Part shown: positions 3,821 through 32,235 of the stretch, piece after piece
Layout of the letters: the number at the start of each line of letters is the position of its first letter
How positions within the stretch are numbered: the first letter of the stretch is position 1
NCBI GenBank assembly: GCA_002070095.1
Contig: MWCR01000001.1
Coordinates: 124,001 to 188,000 of the forward strand
Reading direction: 5' to 3'
Length of the DNA: 64,000 bases
Origin: Parcubacteria group bacterium ADurb.Bin192
GTDB taxonomy: Bacteria; Patescibacteriota; Patescibacteriia; 2-12-FULL-60-25
Made by a program: the position numbers and the translations under genes
The notes under the pieces: model-generated
Seen by the model: the letters and a program-made list of their open reading frames with translations, nothing else
What the model was told of the DNA's origin: nothing
The model's database searches: none

Positions 3821-4570
3821 TTATCGATTGCAATTACCCTTGCCTTGACCCAATCCATGCTTGGCGCCCATTTTTTGACCCCCCATGCCCGTCAAACCTA
3901 ACTCCTGTCTTAAGGCATTCGCCTTCTCAAAATCTTTGGCTTCCATGGCTGTATGCATCTCAACAAACTTGGCAAAGTTATCAGCTGTGATGGCTTGGAA
4001 TTGCTTTGGAATCTCACCGTTAATGGCGACTAATGACTTCCATTGTTCGTAGTTACCGGCCTTAACAGCTGCCATTATTTGCTCGCGCTGTTCAGGTGTA
4101 TGCAGCTGCGCACGGTTCATATTGCCCCTGCGCATATTCCCCTGCCCCATACCCGTCAAACCCAACTCCTGTCTTAAAGCATTCGCCTTCTCAAAATCTT
4201 TGGCTTCCATGGCTGTATGCATCTCAACAAACTTGGCAAAGTTATCAGCTGTGATGGCTTGGAATTGCTTTGGAATCTCACCGTTAATGGCGACTAATGA
4301 CTTCCATTGTTCGTAATTACCGGCCTTAACAGCTGCCATTATTTGCTCGCGCTGTTCGGGAGTGTGGAGCTGTACACGAGGAGCATTATTTCTCCAGCCC
4401 AAGTGCCGGCCATTTTCCATGCCTTGATAAGAAGCTCTGTTTTGACCATTGCCCGCCAACATGGAGGGTTGACTGTTAGGCGCGGCCACAGCGTAACCGG
4501 CTATACCTACAGAACCCACGATGGCCGAAAGAGCGGCCGCATTTCTCCAAAATTTGTATGTCATATTCAT
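3821..4570 (-). CDS. Exported protein with two nearly identical 79-residue repeats
   Basis: This 249-residue protein has an N-terminal export signal (about 8-29, ending AVAA) and then two almost identical domains of about 79 residues, each starting LHTPEQREQIMAAV and ending ALRQELGLTGMG. The units are predicted helical and charged, joined by a short Met/Arg/Gly-rich linker, with a Gly/Lys-rich tail. I do not recognise the domain. It lies about 70 bp downstream of the sigma factor and its membrane partner, so it may be the target or the extracytoplasmic sensor of that system; this is inference from position. The start at 4570 (MNMTYKFW) has no Shine-Dalgarno sequence. Confidence 0.8.
   Translation of the reverse strand: MNMTYKFWRNAAALSAIVGSVGIAGYAVAAPNSQPSMLAGNGQNRASYQGMENGRHLGWRNNAPRVQLHTPEQREQIMAAVKAGNYEQWKSLVAINGEIPKQFQAITADNFAKFVEMHTAMEAKDFEKANALRQELGLTGMGQGNMRRGNMNRAQLHTPEQREQIMAAVKAGNYEQWKSLVAINGEIPKQFQAITADNFAKFVEMHTAMEAKDFEKANALRQELGLTGMGGQKMGAKHGLGQGKGNCNR
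3882..4378. repeat. Tandem 264-bp duplication inside the exported protein gene
   Basis: Copies at 3882-4114 and 4146-4378 align with an offset of 264 bp and only a handful of substitutions. The protein change is nil over most of the unit, so the duplication is recent or is kept uniform by gene conversion. Confidence 0.9.
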
Positions 4571-25621: not shown

Positions 25622-26143
25622 TTAAATTTTTTCCACCGCCAAAGTAATCAGTCCCAAATAATGCAAAGGCATGGCCAGCAAAGCCAAACTGCCGATGACA
25701 AACAACAGATGATCAACCCAGCCGCCCGTATCCACGCATAAAAATTTGGGGATCAGACGATAATTTTTGGGATTGGGAAACAAATATTCGCAGCCTTGAG
25801 GGTTGAATCCGTCGATCAGAGGATGGCTGACATAGCCCCAAAAAAAGACCAGCGGCAGTAAAGGATAGATCGGAAATAAAAAAAATGACAGCAGAGCGAT
25901 AAACGGCAAGACCAGCAAAGAATGGGAAAATCCTCTATGTCTCAAAATTTTGTGCAACAATAAAATACGCGTCAGACCCTGGCTTTTTTGGTGAATGGTG
26001 GAGGCGGGCGTATCAATATCCGGCAACAGACCAGCCAAACCCCCGGCCGCTACCAGAGGAATCAGCCAGATATTCATGGGCTGAAATAACAAAGCCAGCC
26101 AAGCGACATTGGCTCCGATGATAAAATGGGTGCGGCCGGTCAT
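25622..26143 (-). CDS. YdjM-family membrane-bound metal-dependent hydrolase
   Basis: A 173-residue membrane protein of the YdjM/DUF457 family: RTHFIIGANVAW (4-15), LLPDIDTPAST (about 39-49), HRGFSHSLL (about 69-77) and VSHPLIDGFNPQG (about 104-116) carry the His/Asp residues presumed to bind metal. Its substrate is not known; relatives include LexA-regulated and phospholipase-like proteins. The first 64 bases are duplicated at 28744-28807, 2,664 bp away, with a peptide/radical SAM cassette in between. Its ATG overlaps the stop of the HExxH gene by 4 bp. Confidence 0.88.
   Translation of the reverse strand: MTGRTHFIIGANVAWLALLFQPMNIWLIPLVAAGGLAGLLPDIDTPASTIHQKSQGLTRILLLHKILRHRGFSHSLLVLPFIALLSFFLFPIYPLLPLVFFWGYVSHPLIDGFNPQGCEYLFPNPKNYRLIPKFLCVDTGGWVDHLLFVIGSLALLAMPLHYLGLITLAVEKI
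26080..26143. repeat. 64-bp direct repeat, copy A (5' end of the ydjM-family gene)
   Basis: Matches 28744-28807 in the same orientation at 61 of 64 positions, and similarity stops abruptly at both ends. The right boundary is exactly the ATG. Confidence 0.9.
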
Positions 26144-26886
26144 ATGGCCAAACTTGGTGGATCATCCTCAACGGCTTTTATGACTGCCTTGGTAATCATT
26201 AGGGTTTTCAAATTTTCTATACTCGGCATTCTAGATTTAAGATTGTTCAAGATATTTTCATGCACAGGGTATTGCATGGATGGCTGTTTAAATACAGAAA
26301 TCCATGCATCTGAATTCTGGACGAAAGAATTAAATATTTCTGAAATATGCCAAACCTTAAAATCATCCATTTTATTTAAATAAGGCAATTTATCAAACGC
26401 GAAAGCATACCAGATAAAATGCAGCATTTCATGCGCGATAACGACTGGAACATAACCCTTAATCTGATGCTTCCACGGAATCTGAAACGTGCAAGTTTCC
26501 AAAAAACGAGGGTACATGCCCCAAATAGTCAGATATGCAATATATTTTCCGTTCGGCCAATGCGCATCTTCAAACAAATCCTTTGTCAATTTCTCAAATC
26601 TCGGAGACAAGGCATCCCAATCCCGCTGATAAACGATAAGATTAGATGCCATTTCTTTTGCATGACTATTATATTTTAGATTAACAAAACGACATACATC
26701 ATCGCGAGTGGCAGTCAGCTCCGTTCCTTTAAACCAAGAAACAAGCTCCGGATATGGTTTTAAGATGGCCCATTTGATATTTTCACCATCATCATATTCC
26801 GCATCACGCACAAAACAAAAAAAAGTTTCAACATCGCGTTCGGCGGAAATTTTAAACTCAATTGTGGGCAAGATATTATTTTGCAT
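26140..26886 (-). CDS. HExxH metalloprotease-like protein
   Basis: A 248-residue soluble protein with VVIAHEMLHFIWY (about 141-153), a zincin HExxH site; a downstream Glu in WHISEIF (about 173-179) could be the third ligand. I do not recognise the family. It is AT-rich and follows the radical SAM gene, ending on the start codon of the ydjM-family gene. It might cleave the modified peptide's leader, but this is inference from position. A GGGAGG lies seven bases before an in-frame ATT (26914-26916), 30 bases upstream of the ATG, so a ten-residue longer form cannot be excluded. Confidence 0.75.
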   Translation of the reverse strand: MQNNILPTIEFKISAERDVETFFCFVRDAEYDDGENIKWAILKPYPELVSWFKGTELTATRDDVCRFVNLKYNSHAKEMASNLIVYQRDWDALSPRFEKLTKDLFEDAHWPNGKYIAYLTIWGMYPRFLETCTFQIPWKHQIKGYVPVVIAHEMLHFIWYAFAFDKLPYLNKMDDFKVWHISEIFNSFVQNSDAWISVFKQPSMQYPVHENILNNLKSRMPSIENLKTLMITKAVIKAVEDDPPSLAI

Positions 26887-26890
26887 AACT

Positions 26891-26914
26891 GAAAATAGCG
26901 GAAGAACTCCGCTA
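26891..26914 (-). terminator. Hairpin after the radical SAM gene
   Basis: TAGCGGA GTTCT TCCGCTA followed by TTTTC on the minus strand; a short terminator or attenuator between the radical SAM and HExxH genes. Confidence 0.55.
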
Positions 26915-26954
26915 ATAAAGATACCTCCCGGTTAAGTTGTTGAAAAGGCACAGA

Positions 26955-28316
26955 CTACAGCCGTGCGTGCGTGGACCAGATAAGCCATTCCAAAGACTGA
27001 AGGCTGTAAGGACAGACCCGCGAATCAATGTTCCACTTGTTACCGGTAACGATTTCAGCATTAGCCGGGCATCCGCCTCCGCAAATACCGATCGCCGGAC
27101 AAGATTCGCAGGCTTCCATGAACAACGGTGAGCGCTTAAGCCAGTCACCGAACAAGCCCGTCTTATAAGGATCGAAGTCAGTATCAAATACTGACCCTGA
27201 AAAGTATTGACGAGGTTTTACAAAATCCTGACACAGACCAACGACGCCATCTGGCGCGACGACGATCTGATTGCCAGGAACACCGCAGTCAGCATACGTG
27301 GGACGACGCTGGATAAACGCCTGAGCACGCCTCATCATACGCTCCTCATAAATCCCCAGCTTGGTAAACAGCTCGAAGGCTTTTACCATGCAACCGGCCG
27401 CTTCTTCCGCGTATGCTGAAGATGTCTGGAACCTGGGATGACGATGCAAGATATTGAAACATATTCCATCTTGGATACCAAGATCCTCAACGAAAAATTT
27501 CAATCCCGCATCAAAATCTCGAACCAGTTCGGGTGTTAATGTAACGGAAAGACCAACCTTGACACCACGCTCTCTTAAGGCTCTGTATGCCGCCACAACG
27601 CGCTCGTAGACGTTTATACGCCCATGCCGCGAGAGCCTATGACGATTCGTAAGGTCTTCATGTCCATCGATTGAAAGACCAACGCTGACTTGATTCTCTG
27701 CAAATGTATCAGCCAACTCAGGAGTCATCAGTGTCCCGTTCGTGACAATGGTCAACAACGTATTCCGAGGAAGCGCTCCTGAATTCATGAATTTACGTGT
27801 CTGATTTATGGCATGGCTAACTCCATGGGGATTGAGAAGCGGCTCTCCCCCATACAAGTGCACCATTCGCGGTTCACTGGGATGACCATACATGGCGCTC
27901 AGTCGTCCAAAAAGAGATAAAGACTGTTCAATGACTTCATCACTCATGGCGCTGGGACGATGCATGGGAGACGGAGCAACATCTTCAAAGCAATATGCAC
28001 ATCGAAGATTGCAACCGTCGTGCAACAAGAGGTATAGCATGTCCAAATAACGTCGTTTTGACAGCTTCTCACGAAGCCGCAAAAGATCCTCCTTGTCATC
28101 ATGTTCCAACGGAACAAGTAATCCCTCTTGAACAAGTGCCATGCGCTTCTCTTGGTCAATACCTTCTATCAAGGGCAGGCCATCGGCACCGCAGGCAACC
28201 TTGTTAAAAAAGGCCAGACCAAAGTTCAGGGCATGGAAACAAGCTACTGTCTCCCCGTGATTAAAGGTGTGTACCCAAGCGGAAAAACGCAATGATTCTG
28301 AACTAAGCGCTTGCAT
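26955..28316 (-). CDS. Radical SAM/SPASM peptide-maturase-like enzyme
   Basis: 453 residues from MQALSSES, picked because GGAGG lies five bases upstream; a longer frame to 28364 has no such signal. The radical SAM motif is CNLRCAYC (about 103-110), followed by VHLYGGEPLLNP (SAM-binding GGE) and TIVTNGTLM. The C-terminal SPASM region has CGVPGNQIVVAPDGVVGLC, then CESCPAIGICGGGC and a final CPYS, enough Cys for two auxiliary iron-sulfur clusters. The first 85 residues are a variable domain that may bind the peptide. Such enzymes install thioether or carbon-carbon links or epimerise residues in ribosomal peptides. The Cys-rich peptide gene lies just upstream. Confidence 0.9.
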   Translation of the reverse strand: MQALSSESLRFSAWVHTFNHGETVACFHALNFGLAFFNKVACGADGLPLIEGIDQEKRMALVQEGLLVPLEHDDKEDLLRLREKLSKRRYLDMLYLLLHDGCNLRCAYCFEDVAPSPMHRPSAMSDEVIEQSLSLFGRLSAMYGHPSEPRMVHLYGGEPLLNPHGVSHAINQTRKFMNSGALPRNTLLTIVTNGTLMTPELADTFAENQVSVGLSIDGHEDLTNRHRLSRHGRINVYERVVAAYRALRERGVKVGLSVTLTPELVRDFDAGLKFFVEDLGIQDGICFNILHRHPRFQTSSAYAEEAAGCMVKAFELFTKLGIYEERMMRRAQAFIQRRPTYADCGVPGNQIVVAPDGVVGLCQDFVKPRQYFSGSVFDTDFDPYKTGLFGDWLKRSPLFMEACESCPAIGICGGGCPANAEIVTGNKWNIDSRVCPYSLQSLEWLIWSTHARL

Positions 28317-28345
28317 GCTGTCCTCCATTCTTCTGCAACTGAAAA

Positions 28346-28390
28346 GGACGGGCCCGTGAGGCATCCGTCCGAAGTAAACGCAGTCTCACG
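28346..28390 (-). promoter_or_regulatory. Mutually exclusive hairpins between peptide and radical SAM genes
   Basis: GGACGG (28346-28351) can pair with CCGTCC (28365-28370), and CGTGAG (28355-28360) with CTCACG (28385-28390); the two stems overlap and exclude each other. Such an intercistronic element could let the peptide be made in excess over the enzyme. Confidence 0.45.
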
Positions 28391-28397
28391 GATAATA

Positions 28398-28604
28398 CTA
28401 GTCCTCAATAGGACTATCCTCCGTCAACGAACCAGACCTGCAACGTGTGCACGACGTGTAGCAAGTACACTCCTGTGTACTCTTCGAGGCTTCTTCGGCC
28501 AACTTGGCCATCACGGAAAGCCGCTGTTCGGAAGAAGGAATGGTGCAAAGAGGGGCGGAACTTTGATATCCCGCTGCGGAAGAGTAATTAGGATACGATG
28601 GCAT
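28398..28604 (-). CDS. Cys-rich small peptide, candidate precursor of the radical SAM enzyme
   Basis: A 68-residue peptide with AGGAGAC at good spacing before the ATG and a consensus promoter 60 bases upstream. The N-terminal half is Ser/Tyr/Pro-rich, the middle (26-45) is a charged leader-like helix (EQRLSVMAKLAEEASKSTQE), and the C-terminal part has C46, C48, C52 and C55 in CTCYTSCTRC, followed by an acidic tail. One more Cys is at 20. Size, layout and adjacency to a SPASM enzyme fit a RiPP precursor; I cannot place it in a named family. Any cross-links are conjecture. Confidence 0.75.
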   Translation of the reverse strand: MPSYPNYSSAAGYQSSAPLCTIPSSEQRLSVMAKLAEEASKSTQECTCYTSCTRCRSGSLTEDSPIED

Positions 28605-28663
28605 GTCTGTTGTCTCCTGCTGAAGGTGGAAGGTGCCGGCGTCAAGTAAAGAACGCCAACGTT

Positions 28664-28692
28664 AAAATAAAGCCTGACGCTTTATTTGTCAA
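28664..28692 (-). promoter_or_regulatory. Promoter of the peptide/radical SAM operon
   Basis: TTGACA (28687-28692), exactly 17 bp, TATTTT (28664-28669) on the minus strand. This is the best housekeeping-type promoter in the window; start expected near 28657. Confidence 0.7.
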
Positions 28693-28743: not shown

Positions 28744-28807
28744 GCTGAAATAACGAAGCTAGCCAAGCGGCATTGGCTCCGATGATAAAATGGGTGCGGC
28801 CGGTCAT
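28744..28807 (-). pseudogene. Duplicated 5' fragment of the ydjM-family gene (64-bp direct repeat, copy B)
   Basis: Encodes MTGRTHFIIGANAAWLASLF and stops two codons later. It differs from 26080-26143 at three bases, two of which change the protein. It lies 17 bases after the stop of the 28825 gene, so this is probably the original position of the ydjM-family start, now cut off by the cassette. Confidence 0.8.
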
Positions 28808-28824: not shown

Positions 28825-31107
28825 TCAATTGCCGCACAAACCCGGATTGAAGGCGTTGATGTTGAAATAACTAAAAAAGTCCGTGTTGACGATAAAATCA
28901 TTCACCTGCCGGCCGGTGACGGCCAATTCCAAAAAGCTGTCTTGATCCTCCCAATAAACATACACGGCCTCCGGATTTTGATATTGATCAGCAATCAAAC
29001 GTTTGCCGTTTCTTTCTTGATCACGGGAGCTGGTGATGGTGCCGGGTGTCCTGGATGCTTGCTGGCGGTAAAAATCATCTAAAGTCATTTTTCCGGAGGC
29101 GTGAGACGTTACCGAGAGAGCGATATTATCGCCATGGAATTTGGCGTCCGGCGAATTTAGATCGGCAGTCACGGTTGTCCAGCGTGCCGGATAAGCCAAG
29201 GAGTAATTATAAGCACAGCTATGGTAAGTTTTGACATCCGTCCCGGCCGTCCAATCCACCGCAGAGGGCGCTTGGCTGACAGGCGCTGATTTAAAAGTTT
29301 TAATAATGGTCTGCATGTCCCAGACGGCCTGCTCCGGAATATCCGAAGGCTGAATTCCGTTAAAATGCGACCAGCCAAAAACATATTCTTGATTGCGTCC
29401 AGCCTCTTCTTCCCAGCACAAATCCATGGATTCACATTCTTGACGGTAGGCTTGCCACGACGCTTGATCATAAACAGACATGACAAACATTTTCATATAA
29501 CCGGGTTTATCCGAATACTCTGAATCTTCGGCGGTCGGCAAATAAAAATTAATCACGGCTTGCGAATACACATCGTCCACCGGTAATTCTTCGGCTAAAT
29601 AATTCTGCCAAGCCGGAGTAAAACTTAATTCAAAACCATACTTTTGATTAATATAATGGTTTGAAGATGAAGAAGCGGCCGCCGTATCATCAGCCTGCCG
29701 GACAACGGGAGTCGCTGGAGACGCCTCATCAGACCGAGGAGGCACAGTCCTTAGATCAGAACCTTTTTCGGTCTGATGACCGGCGTACCTGACAGCCACC
29801 AAGCCCAAACCAATAAAACCCAATAACATACTGCCAACCAAAAGGCTGACGGCCAGAGATTTTTTATCCTTTTTTATAAAATACAGAAACAAGAAGACGG
29901 CCAGCGCGAAAAAGGCCAAGGCCGCCATCAGACCGAAAAATGACCAGGCGTCAAAAGTCGGTTCAAAATACAAAGGAAGATATTCATTGGATATAAGCTG
30001 ATTCGATTGATAATTAGGATACAAACCGGAAGCGGTCTGCATGATGAGATCGACTCCGTCGCGAGTGATTCCCTTATCAGCCAAAACCGGTACGATCGCC
30101 CGGCCGTCAACTGATAACTCAGACGGCGCATCCGTGCCGCTGACTGACAAGGTTAAGATGGAACCATTGACCACTTCTCCGCCCTCATATTTATACACCT
30201 CGAATTCACCCTGATCATTCGGTCTGGAAGTCAAAACTGTCACCGAACCCTGCCCCGTGCCCACGGCTGAAATCTCATATTCTTGATCTGTTGGCACAAT
30301 AAAATACGCAACGCTCTCGCCATTAGCATATTCTCTTATTTCCGGATAAATCTCCGGATCTTGCGATACAAAGTTGCCCTTGGCATCATAGCCCACACTC
30401 AAACCCGTGGCCTTATTGGTCAGCAAAACATTTAAAGGGCACATGACCAACACCCTGACTTTATCCTTAACGTCATAAGCCATCATTTTTTGAATCAAGT
30501 ATTTCAGCTTAGCATCCTGAACATCATTTCTGGCGCGATCCCGAATGGAAGCATTTACTTTTGCTTTAACCTCAGATGGTAAATTATCATAATAAGCTTT
30601 TTCTTGAGCTGTCAGTTCATATTCCGAACGCAAAACCTGCTGATAGTCGGCTCCGCACACCGGATAAAAGGCGGCTGTGTCACATTGAAAACCGCGCGCC
30701 TGACCATGCACTTCAAATTCCCAATCTTCGATAGGATAAATATCATGCGCATTTCTGAGCCAAATATCCAGGACCCGTCCGTTATCAGGCCAAAAACCAC
30801 CCTTGTCATATACCACGGCCGCCAAATGTCCGGCCAATGGATTTAAAACATAAGGCGCCATCACTTCTATGGGTCCGTAATCAAAATACTTGGCAATGAT
30901 TTCTCTTTCGGTCGCGTCACTGCTCAAACGCAAGCCGTCCAGCATATTGATGACACGAGTCTGATGTGAACCGCAAACCCAAGGCTCATACTGATCCTTT
31001 AAACGCTTGGTGTAATCAGCCAGTTCTTGATTATTAAATAGATTAATCTCTTCATAGGCCATGGCTTTAAGCACCCGATTATTGGTCGGACAGCTGGCAC
31101 ACCACAC
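28825..31107 (-). CDS. Large surface protein, C-terminal part, separated by TGA from 31207-32235
   Basis: 760 residues if started at the GTG 31105-31107, but the frame is open up to an in-frame TGA at 31207-31209 and continues the frame of the upstream gene. The sequence has a Cys pair (WCASCP), an alpha/beta region of unknown type, two adjacent membrane helices (about 392-415 and 422-445) and a Ser/Ala-rich linker. Two related C-terminal domains follow (from about 487 and 640; YGFELSFTPAWQNY and YNYSLAYPARWTTV), similar to PsbP-like lipoprotein domains. I see no enzyme motif. The mature product is probably membrane-anchored with outside domains. Confidence 0.7.
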   Translation of the reverse strand: MWCASCPTNNRVLKAMAYEEINLFNNQELADYTKRLKDQYEPWVCGSHQTRVINMLDGLRLSSDATEREIIAKYFDYGPIEVMAPYVLNPLAGHLAAVVYDKGGFWPDNGRVLDIWLRNAHDIYPIEDWEFEVHGQARGFQCDTAAFYPVCGADYQQVLRSEYELTAQEKAYYDNLPSEVKAKVNASIRDRARNDVQDAKLKYLIQKMMAYDVKDKVRVLVMCPLNVLLTNKATGLSVGYDAKGNFVSQDPEIYPEIREYANGESVAYFIVPTDQEYEISAVGTGQGSVTVLTSRPNDQGEFEVYKYEGGEVVNGSILTLSVSGTDAPSELSVDGRAIVPVLADKGITRDGVDLIMQTASGLYPNYQSNQLISNEYLPLYFEPTFDAWSFFGLMAALAFFALAVFLFLYFIKKDKKSLAVSLLVGSMLLGFIGLGLVAVRYAGHQTEKGSDLRTVPPRSDEASPATPVVRQADDTAAASSSSNHYINQKYGFELSFTPAWQNYLAEELPVDDVYSQAVINFYLPTAEDSEYSDKPGYMKMFVMSVYDQASWQAYRQECESMDLCWEEEAGRNQEYVFGWSHFNGIQPSDIPEQAVWDMQTIIKTFKSAPVSQAPSAVDWTAGTDVKTYHSCAYNYSLAYPARWTTVTADLNSPDAKFHGDNIALSVTSHASGKMTLDDFYRQQASRTPGTITSSRDQERNGKRLIADQYQNPEAVYVYWEDQDSFLELAVTGRQVNDFIVNTDFFSYFNINAFNPGLCGN

Positions 31108-31206
31108 GCCTTGGCGCGCGTATGGATTCAGAGGCAGAGCCTGATATTTTTGTACAATATAATCCCAAGCCTGTTCCTTGGTGATGGCGCGCGGACAGTC
31201 TTCCGG

Positions 31207-31209
31207 TCA
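31207..31209 (-). other. In-frame TGA interrupting one long gene
   Basis: The frames of 31207-32235 and 28825-31107 are the same and only this TGA separates them. The context CGNWDCQTGENHDN-stop-PEDCP matches the usual repeat CGNGxCxxGENxxNCPxDCP, so the TGA stands where a Cys codon (TGC or TGT) is expected. Confidence 0.85.
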
Positions 31210-32235
31210 ATTATCATGATTTTCCCCGGTCTGACAGTCCCAGTTGCCGCACCAAAGATTCAAACCCGGTGTTAAAGTTATGCGCGCCACGGGATTGCCC
31301 TTGGGATGAACCGCCTGCAATAACAAAGTGGAAGTGGCAAAATCGCGATCCTGTTCGGATGTTTGATACACGAATTTAATCTGCCCGTTTTTATCCGTCA
31401 CTGAAGACGTTTGAGTGACGTGCCCCTCTTTGTCATCAGGCACCGTGTTACGTTCATCATTTAAACGAAATTCGATTTTTTCACCGGCCAACGGCCGTCC
31501 ATCTTGAATCAGGCTAACCGTAAACTCCATTTTGGTTTGACCATCCGCCACCATTGATACTTCTTGCGGCGAAAGGCTGACCGAAATATCAGACGGACAA
31601 GCAACTCCACAAGACCCTCCGCAATCAATACCTTGTTCATTTCCGTTCCTGACTCCGTCAAAACAATCGGCAGGCTCCGGTCCGGAAGGAACGCGGTCTT
31701 TAAGAGCTTCACAACATGTTTGCAAGACCTGAATGGGACTTTCCATACTCGCTTCTTCGGCCGCTCCAACGTCTTGGCAGACGCGCTTGCAATCCAGCAT
31801 TATTTTTTCGATTTCGTTGGGACGTTTGATGTATCCGTTGGTACAATCCGCGCTTAAACCACGGGCCGCTTCCGCAGCTTCGCAATCACGAGTGCACTTT
31901 TCCAAACAAGCGGCGGTTTTATGCCAGCCGTAATTCGGATCCAAATAGTAATCACGGCGATGCTTGAGGGCCGCATCTCTTTTTGCCACGCATTTAACAG
32001 CCTGATTCTTTTCTTCGATATTCAAGCGATTGACGTCGATCCATTGACCGCAAGGAGCCCAAGGATCTTGCCCAAGCCATTCGCCGTAAACAATGGCCGG
32101 ATCAAAATCCGCTTCCGTGGCCAGAGGCTGGGCCCGTGTAATTTGAATGGATAAATAAAAAACCGACATAACGCCGAATAATAAACCGAAAAAAATCGCC
32201 CCCCAATAATATTTTTTAATGGAAAAAGAATACAT
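31207..32235 (-). CDS. Large surface protein, N-terminal part, ending at the TGA
   Basis: 342 residues. It has an N-terminal signal or anchor (about 10-33), a Cys-rich region with many short helices (ACLEKCTRDCEAAEAA), the motif GVRNGNEQGIDCGGSCGVAC (about 192-211) common in surface proteins of environmental bacteria, then an Ig-like Big_1 domain (about 213-320; MVADGQTKMEFTVSLIQDGR). The end, CGNWDCQTGENHDN, is half of a Cys-rich repeat whose other half lies past the stop. It is either a freshly broken gene or one read through at UGA. Confidence 0.75.
   Translation of the reverse strand: MYSFSIKKYYWGAIFFGLLFGVMSVFYLSIQITRAQPLATEADFDPAIVYGEWLGQDPWAPCGQWIDVNRLNIEEKNQAVKCVAKRDAALKHRRDYYLDPNYGWHKTAACLEKCTRDCEAAEAARGLSADCTNGYIKRPNEIEKIMLDCKRVCQDVGAAEEASMESPIQVLQTCCEALKDRVPSGPEPADCFDGVRNGNEQGIDCGGSCGVACPSDISVSLSPQEVSMVADGQTKMEFTVSLIQDGRPLAGEKIEFRLNDERNTVPDDKEGHVTQTSSVTDKNGQIKFVYQTSEQDRDFATSTLLLQAVHPKGNPVARITLTPGLNLWCGNWDCQTGENHDN

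Follow-up and report, generated by a model that had tools for sequence, protein, structure and literature searches.

A likely horizontally acquired RiPP cassette with a radical SAM/SPASM enzyme and an unnamed HExxH protein in a Parcubacteria group bacterium

Organization of the cassette

The stretch of DNA analyzed here, called the window, comprises 64,000 nucleotides (positions 124,001 to 188,000 of contig MWCR01000001.1) from Parcubacteria group bacterium ADurb.Bin192, an organism of the candidate phyla radiation (CPR). Three neighboring genes of the window encode a small Cys-rich peptide, a radical SAM/SPASM enzyme and an HExxH protein, and together they are likely to be a horizontally acquired cassette for a ribosomally synthesized and post-translationally modified peptide (RiPP), with the small peptide as its precursor. 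The three genes are as follows.

28398-28604, minus strand: precursor peptide gene (68 aa); open reading frame (ORF) with no Pfam or NCBIfam match
26955-28316, minus strand: radical SAM/SPASM peptide maturase (453 aa from an ATG with a GGAGG site); PF04055, E 1.7e-17
26140-26886, minus strand: HExxH protein (248 aa), gluzincin-like, of an unnamed family; no Pfam or NCBIfam match

These ORFs had been proposed in a first-pass annotation made from the sequence alone, and all three were present on the minus strand at the positions given for them. The 68-aa peptide was MPSYPNYSSAAGYQSSAPLCTIPSSEQRLSVMAKLAEEASKSTQECTCYTSCTRCRSGSLTEDSPIED. AGGAG ahead of its ATG agreed with the strong ribosome binding site that had been described, and the peptide, which the annotation could not place in a named family, did not match TIGR04135 either. 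The enzyme start at 28316 (GGAGG-acagc-ATG) was likelier than the start of the longest ORF at 28364. The statement that no transporter adjoins the cassette was borne out, and no second copy of the enzyme or HExxH gene was found in the genome; the cassette is single-copy.

Recurrence of the cassette and detection of the precursor

Genome contigs were scanned, and five CPR loci were obtained whose enzymes are 43-47% identical (L012 from Portnoybacteria, L013, L014 and L015 from Moraniibacteriota, and L016 from Paceibacterota) and one Clostridia locus (L017) at 34% identity. In L012-L015 a small peptide is encoded upstream of the enzyme and an HExxH gene lies downstream of it; the L016 sequence begins inside the enzyme, and the HExxH gene is present. 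L046, L054, L068, L069 and L080 came from profile searches of genomes sampled from the phylum, and the HExxH-family genes beside the L068 and L069 enzymes were recovered by a profile built without both (E 2e-15 and 2e-14). Across the 11 CPR loci of this enzyme clade, the window included, the HExxH gene was adjacent to the enzyme in every one, divergent in L054 and convergent in L069, and a precursor was found in all 10 that have upstream sequence. L070, with a 26% identical enzyme and neither peptide nor HExxH gene, was excluded as an outlier. The distribution was patchy (6 of 380 sampled genomes). At the Clostridia locus an extremely Cys-rich peptide (CDCICHCDC..CHCDC..CNCDCDC) is encoded upstream of the enzyme relative at L017:5424-5774, and a profile search found no HExxH-family gene in that locus.

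Two parts of the window peptide were recognized by comparison with its relatives.

28500-28544, minus strand: residues 21-35, TIPSSEQRLSVMAKL, the predicted recognition motif of the leader; relatives share the block P-S-x-E-Q-R-x-x-V
28440-28469, minus strand: predicted core C-T-C-Y-T-S-C-T-R-C (residues 46-55), from an alignment of the five closest members

The leader motif V-P-S-x-E-Q-R-x-x-V-L was common to the small Cys-rich peptides of all 10 assessable loci. The Cys-rich ORFs had first been chosen by eye, and a leave-one-out search was therefore made, in which every ORF of a locus was scored with a profile built from the remaining loci. With the whole precursor, the expected ORF ranked first in 10 of 10 loci (E 3e-11 to 8e-5), and the next-best ORF had an E-value of 0.03 or worse. 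The window peptide was the top of 777 window ORFs with a profile from the other loci only (E 3.4e-11), and the L080 precursor was detected by a profile built before that locus was known (E 2.4e-10). When the core was removed and only 21 leader columns were used, the expected ORF was again first in all 10 loci, with E-values that were weak at some of them (0.23 in the window, 1.2 in L069). It is extremely improbable that the small ORF and the two enzymes are chance neighbors, as is conceivable from any single locus alone: this explanation was refuted by the leave-one-out detection in 10 of 10 loci and by recurrence of the cassette in different genomic contexts. The cassette that recurs across CPR loci is a conserved and real, functional-looking system.

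The cores diversified strongly among the relatives while the leader was retained, and this RiPP precursor pattern was found in 10 of 10 loci. Among the five closest precursors, C46, C48, Y49, T50, C52, R54 and C55 were invariant columns as aligned; C-Y-T-[SQ]-C-x-R-C was invariant in all five, and the fourth Cys lay just ahead of it, its position shifting by one. Spacing of the CxC/CxxC kind was repeated in the precursors of many relatives. Comparison of the L013 and L014 precursors gave a nonsynonymous rate (dN) of 0.12 and a synonymous rate (dS) of 0.67, with a dN/dS of about 0.17 over 37 codons, which is a small sample. The first-pass annotation had proposed that the SPASM enzyme modifies the peptide by sactipeptide/ranthipeptide logic, and had named two findings that would speak against it, namely that homologues of the enzyme consistently have no such peptide upstream, and that the four C-terminal Cys are not conserved. 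Neither was observed: the peptide was present in 10 of 10 assessable same-clade relatives, and all four Cys were kept in the five closest members. The proposal is supported.

The radical SAM/SPASM enzyme

The regions of the enzyme that bear on its function are listed below.

28056-28292, minus strand: N-terminal peptide-recognition domain (RiPP recognition element, RRE, PqqD-like), residues 9-87; strands then helices in the model
27990-28013, minus strand: radical SAM cluster motif CxxxCxxC (C102, C106, C109), invariant in 11 sequences
27012-27287, minus strand: SPASM region C344-x12-G-x4-C362 ... C403-x2-C406-x5-C412-x3-C416 ... C435

The seven SPASM Cys and G357 were invariant in the same 11 sequences and fit the pattern CX9-15GX4C ... 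CX2CX5CX3C ... C that is characteristic of a radical SAM/SPASM maturase. The AlphaFold2 model of the enzyme had a mean predicted local distance difference test (pLDDT) score of 87. It was compared with the thioether-forming maturase CteB (5wgg), which gave Z 32.7 over 411 residues with the alignment running from residue 12 of the model and residue 1 of the chain, and with TigE, which gave Z 29.8 over 409 residues starting at residue 5. Both alignments included the N-terminal domain, and they and the model itself identified it as a PqqD-like RRE domain. From the model, we infer a CteB-like peptide-recognition domain that is predicted to bind the leader. Among the PADLOC anti-phage defence models, none gave a system-specific match; the radical SAM core produced weak cross-matches to viperin and nothing more, and a defence system was rejected on this basis.

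The HExxH protein and its family

Two sites stood out in the alignments of the HExxH protein.

26419-26433, minus strand: HEMLH motif (H152-E153-x-x-H156)
26338-26340, minus strand: E183, candidate third metal ligand, in W179-x3-E183-x-F185-N186; invariant in 22 of 22 aligned members

The AlphaFold2 model (pLDDT 93.5) placed E183 on the helix that follows H152, E153 and H156. These three residues, with the invariant W179 and E183, would suit a His/His/Glu metal site. In a further structural comparison the best matches of the model were M1, M4 and M61 gluzincins, at Z 5-7, which is below the reliability level of the tool; this is a weak though consistent sign of a gluzincin-like fold. When the HExxH profile was searched against the sequences of solved structures, no informative match came back. 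The protein is probably the leader peptidase, or possibly an oxidase.

Several HEXXH-motif proteins in RiPP clusters are alpha-ketoglutarate oxygenases, and one of them, PflC, can also hydrolyse (PMC12636437). These enzymes (IPR026337; ChlBH, BpmH, PflC and PosC) have a zincin-like fold, but the window protein had no sequence match to them, although distant homology is conceivable, and was structurally nearest to gluzincin peptidases. They were not among the structural matches of the model, a result that leaves room for them. We regard it as unlikely that the cassette is the same but its HExxH protein is an oxidative tailoring enzyme of this alpha-ketoglutarate/iron type, acting by hydroxylation or oxidative cleavage. 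The gene adjoins the SPASM enzyme in 11 of 11 loci and its family also occurs near other radical SAM enzymes, as such a role would have it; however, the best structural matches were peptidases of the gluzincin arrangement, and no NCBIfam match was found up to E 1, in a collection that presumably includes the RiPP HEXXH family model TIGR04267. Since an anaerobic life and a small metabolism are attributed to many CPR organisms, an O2-dependent step by the HExxH protein is less likely.

The HExxH family was found in 16 of the 380 sampled genomes of the phylum, and the members found here came only from CPR genomes. Some adjoin other radical SAM enzymes (L047, L051 with two copies, L057 and L080). 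At L057:3770-6060 a radical SAM enzyme, a 43-aa CYCHCACACH peptide ending in ACYCHCACACHVTG and an HExxH-family gene stand in a row, and the peptide is a candidate for another precursor type. The distant members L058-L060, beside which no radical SAM gene was seen, have lost both His (FELLCF) and kept W179 and E183, and their sequences suggest non-catalytic relatives of the family. Another HExxH protein without a family name, about 305-320 aa long (..NLSEWHFS..GPLS..EE), adjoins a different radical SAM enzyme, close to the HExxH family of the cassette, at L047:3906-4850, L051:11498-12463 and L080:8786-9703. With its radical SAM enzyme it looks like a separate CPR system.

Insertion of the cassette into the genome

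The cassette of the window is flanked by host genes and a direct repeat.

26080-26143: direct repeat copy 1, which is the 64-bp start of the intact YdjM-like gene; shares 95% identity with copy 2
28744-28807: direct repeat copy 2, a truncated remnant of the start of the YdjM-like gene; adjoins the ancestral upstream gene
25622-26143, minus strand: YdjM-like membrane protein gene, the insertion target; PF04307, E 1.4e-26
28825-31107, minus strand: upstream host gene (760 aa)

The remnant in copy 2 was an 83% identical 23-codon match that contained a stop. In the sister genome L025 the homologues of these two host genes lay 2 bp apart with no cassette, and in the sister genome L026 only a small unrelated gene lay between them, again with no cassette. 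The enzyme was not found in eight congeneric genomes at E 1e-30. Because of the 64-bp flanking repeat, the empty sites in two sisters and the lack of the enzyme in eight congeners, the window cassette is inserted DNA that was horizontally acquired. An assembly artefact is a possible source of the 64-bp repeat arrangement.

Repeats were also seen elsewhere. In L015 (5436-5557 and 8170-8312) the cassette stands behind a histidine-kinase gene, and a 70% identical duplicate of the 3' end of that gene follows it, as if carried in from a donor. In L054 direct repeats of about 90% identity (283-384 and 4083-4254) enclose the cassette and a methyltransferase gene. More than one locus thus shows the target gene partly duplicated upon acquisition of the cassette. 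Viral or plasmid carriage was rejected: no relative of the enzyme or HExxH protein was found in viral contigs, no enzyme in phages and no HExxH protein in plasmids. Integration of the other cassettes at tRNA genes was rejected as well, with no tRNA in seven loci.

Comparison with known systems

The best-scoring family for the window enzyme was FibroRumin (maturase TIGR04136, Cys-rich RiPP TIGR04135), and TIGR04136 matched all 11 enzymes. A short Cys-rich precursor upstream of the enzyme is a further likeness, and the L068 precursor touched TIGR04135. It is nevertheless doubtful that the cassette is a plain member of this family and no separate variant. Enzyme scores of 225-263 bits (window 228, L068 263, L017 226, L046 225) fell short of the cut-off, which is 400. 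L068 was the only precursor to match TIGR04135, with E 4e-4 and 20.4 bits against a cut-off of 45, and the window precursor was unmatched. In the Clostridia locus L017 the profile search found no HExxH-family gene. The HExxH partner and the VPSxEQR leader, as seen in the CPR loci, are candidate differences, and the host is a CPR organism. The cassette resembles a FibroRumin/SCIFF-type RiPP system in the way it would work, and it falls short of the curated thresholds for FibroRumin proper. The literature searched, outside the scope of which lay most subscription journals, yielded no published description of FibroRumin and no paper on a CPR radical-SAM Cys peptide.

The SCIFF maturase CteB (5wgg, 5why) has the same architecture of N-terminal recognition domain, radical SAM barrel and SPASM region, but its identity to the window enzyme is about 20%, its precursor is another one, and the SCIFF model TIGR03974 reached 83 bits where its cut-off is 425. 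The ranthipeptide maturase PapB (NF047865) was the second-best NCBIfam match, at 127 bits, and its cut-off of 340 was not reached. Like the window enzyme it has a Cys-rich substrate with a leader, and thioether chemistry with a loss of 2 Da is expected in both. PapB joins Cys to Asp/Glu in CX3D (PMC9413430), whereas the window core does not have the CX3D motif. Graspetide clusters with SPASM enzymes and zincins have been predicted in CPR genomes, and are likewise RiPP loci in which some clusters have SPASM enzymes and zincin peptidases (PMC8939145); graspetides are modified by ATP-grasp ligases, however, and the cassette has no ATP-grasp gene.

Proposed function

In the mechanism that we favor, the gene just upstream of the enzyme encodes a small precursor that has its leader motif toward the N-terminus and its Cys-rich core toward the C-terminus, as conservation shows. 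The N-terminal recognition domain would bind the leader and present the core to the radical site, as the structure suggests. By analogy with its family, the enzyme would form thioether cross-links from core Cys to nearby residues in the manner of sactipeptides and ranthipeptides, with a loss of 2 Da per link, and the HExxH protein would then process the product. Removal of the leader by this zincin, freeing a product of about 10-25 residues, seems to us to have a slightly better than even chance. The three genes of the cassette arrived in this genome together, between the 760-aa gene and the YdjM-like gene, and the first 64 bp of the latter were duplicated. As a guess, the product interferes with competing microbes or signals to a host.

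The following results weigh against this scheme. There is no Asp/Glu within the core C46-C55 and thus no PapB-like C-x3-D/E motif, and the cross-link partner is unclear because an acceptor in that spacing is lacking. Foldseek returned no significant E-value for the HExxH model. The HExxH-family gene of L069 reads HEIISH instead of HExxH. The pairwise similarities of the enzyme and HExxH protein across loci were weakly correlated (rho 0.34, p 0.06), too weakly for co-inheritance to be argued from distance, and the correlation was not used as support. Finally, the cassette has no exporter or immunity gene. The last point, together with the lack of a Peptidase_C39 exporter domain in the whole genome, would fit an intracellular metal-binding peptide or redox cofactor precursor in place of a secreted effector, as would the CxC/CxxC spacing, which suits metal binding, and the single copy of the cassette. 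But the cores diversify strongly over a stable leader, as in secreted RiPPs, and the patchy distribution and mobility are unlike those of a core cofactor; we think an intracellular product rather improbable.

Beyond the RiPP cassette itself, we tentatively entertain, at somewhat less than even chances, a mobile radical-SAM peptide class that is CPR's own. It would have a common leader and a CPR-centred HExxH enzyme, shared with other radical SAM peptide systems, whose step (leader removal or oxidation) would be new to the named enzyme families.

Hardly any peptide natural products are known from CPR bacteria. One survey of biosynthetic clusters found none in its Patescibacteria genomes (PMC11613949) and another found nine clusters in Patescibacteria (PMC8692599). 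A compact three-gene system that recurs across CPR groups and moves horizontally offers a testable molecule through which very small cells that probably depend on a host might influence hosts or rivals; the bacterium that carries the cassette of the window is tiny and probably parasitic or symbiotic. The cassette family also provides well-defined leaders and cores that could be expressed heterologously, and whether the unnamed HExxH family acts as a peptidase or an oxidase matters to a question now under study in RiPP enzymology.

Additional features of the loci

The 342-aa (31207-32235) and 760-aa (28825-31107) ORFs of the window correspond to one ORF of 1131-1150 aa in L025 and L026, and the window copy is split near 31107-31207 by a frameshift or an assembly error. 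The gene in the intergenic place of L026 that holds the cassette in the window (L026:4386-4748) encodes 120 aa and is four-helix-bundle-like by eye. Genes with a Bro-N domain follow the cassette in two CPR genomes (L015:8368-9321 and L054:4243-5127).

A consensus promoter upstream of the precursor gene had also been annotated.

28664-28692, minus strand: candidate promoter TTGACA-17-TATTTT; 10 of 12 consensus positions

The sequence was present as described, but the number of such matches in the region was that of chance (5 found, 4.7 expected). A promoter at this place is plausible from the sequence, and we gave it no evidential weight. A perfect inverted repeat, AAATAAAGC-GTCAG-GCTTTATTT, occupies the promoter-like spacer at 28665-28687 and overlaps the second hexamer; it is a possible operator.

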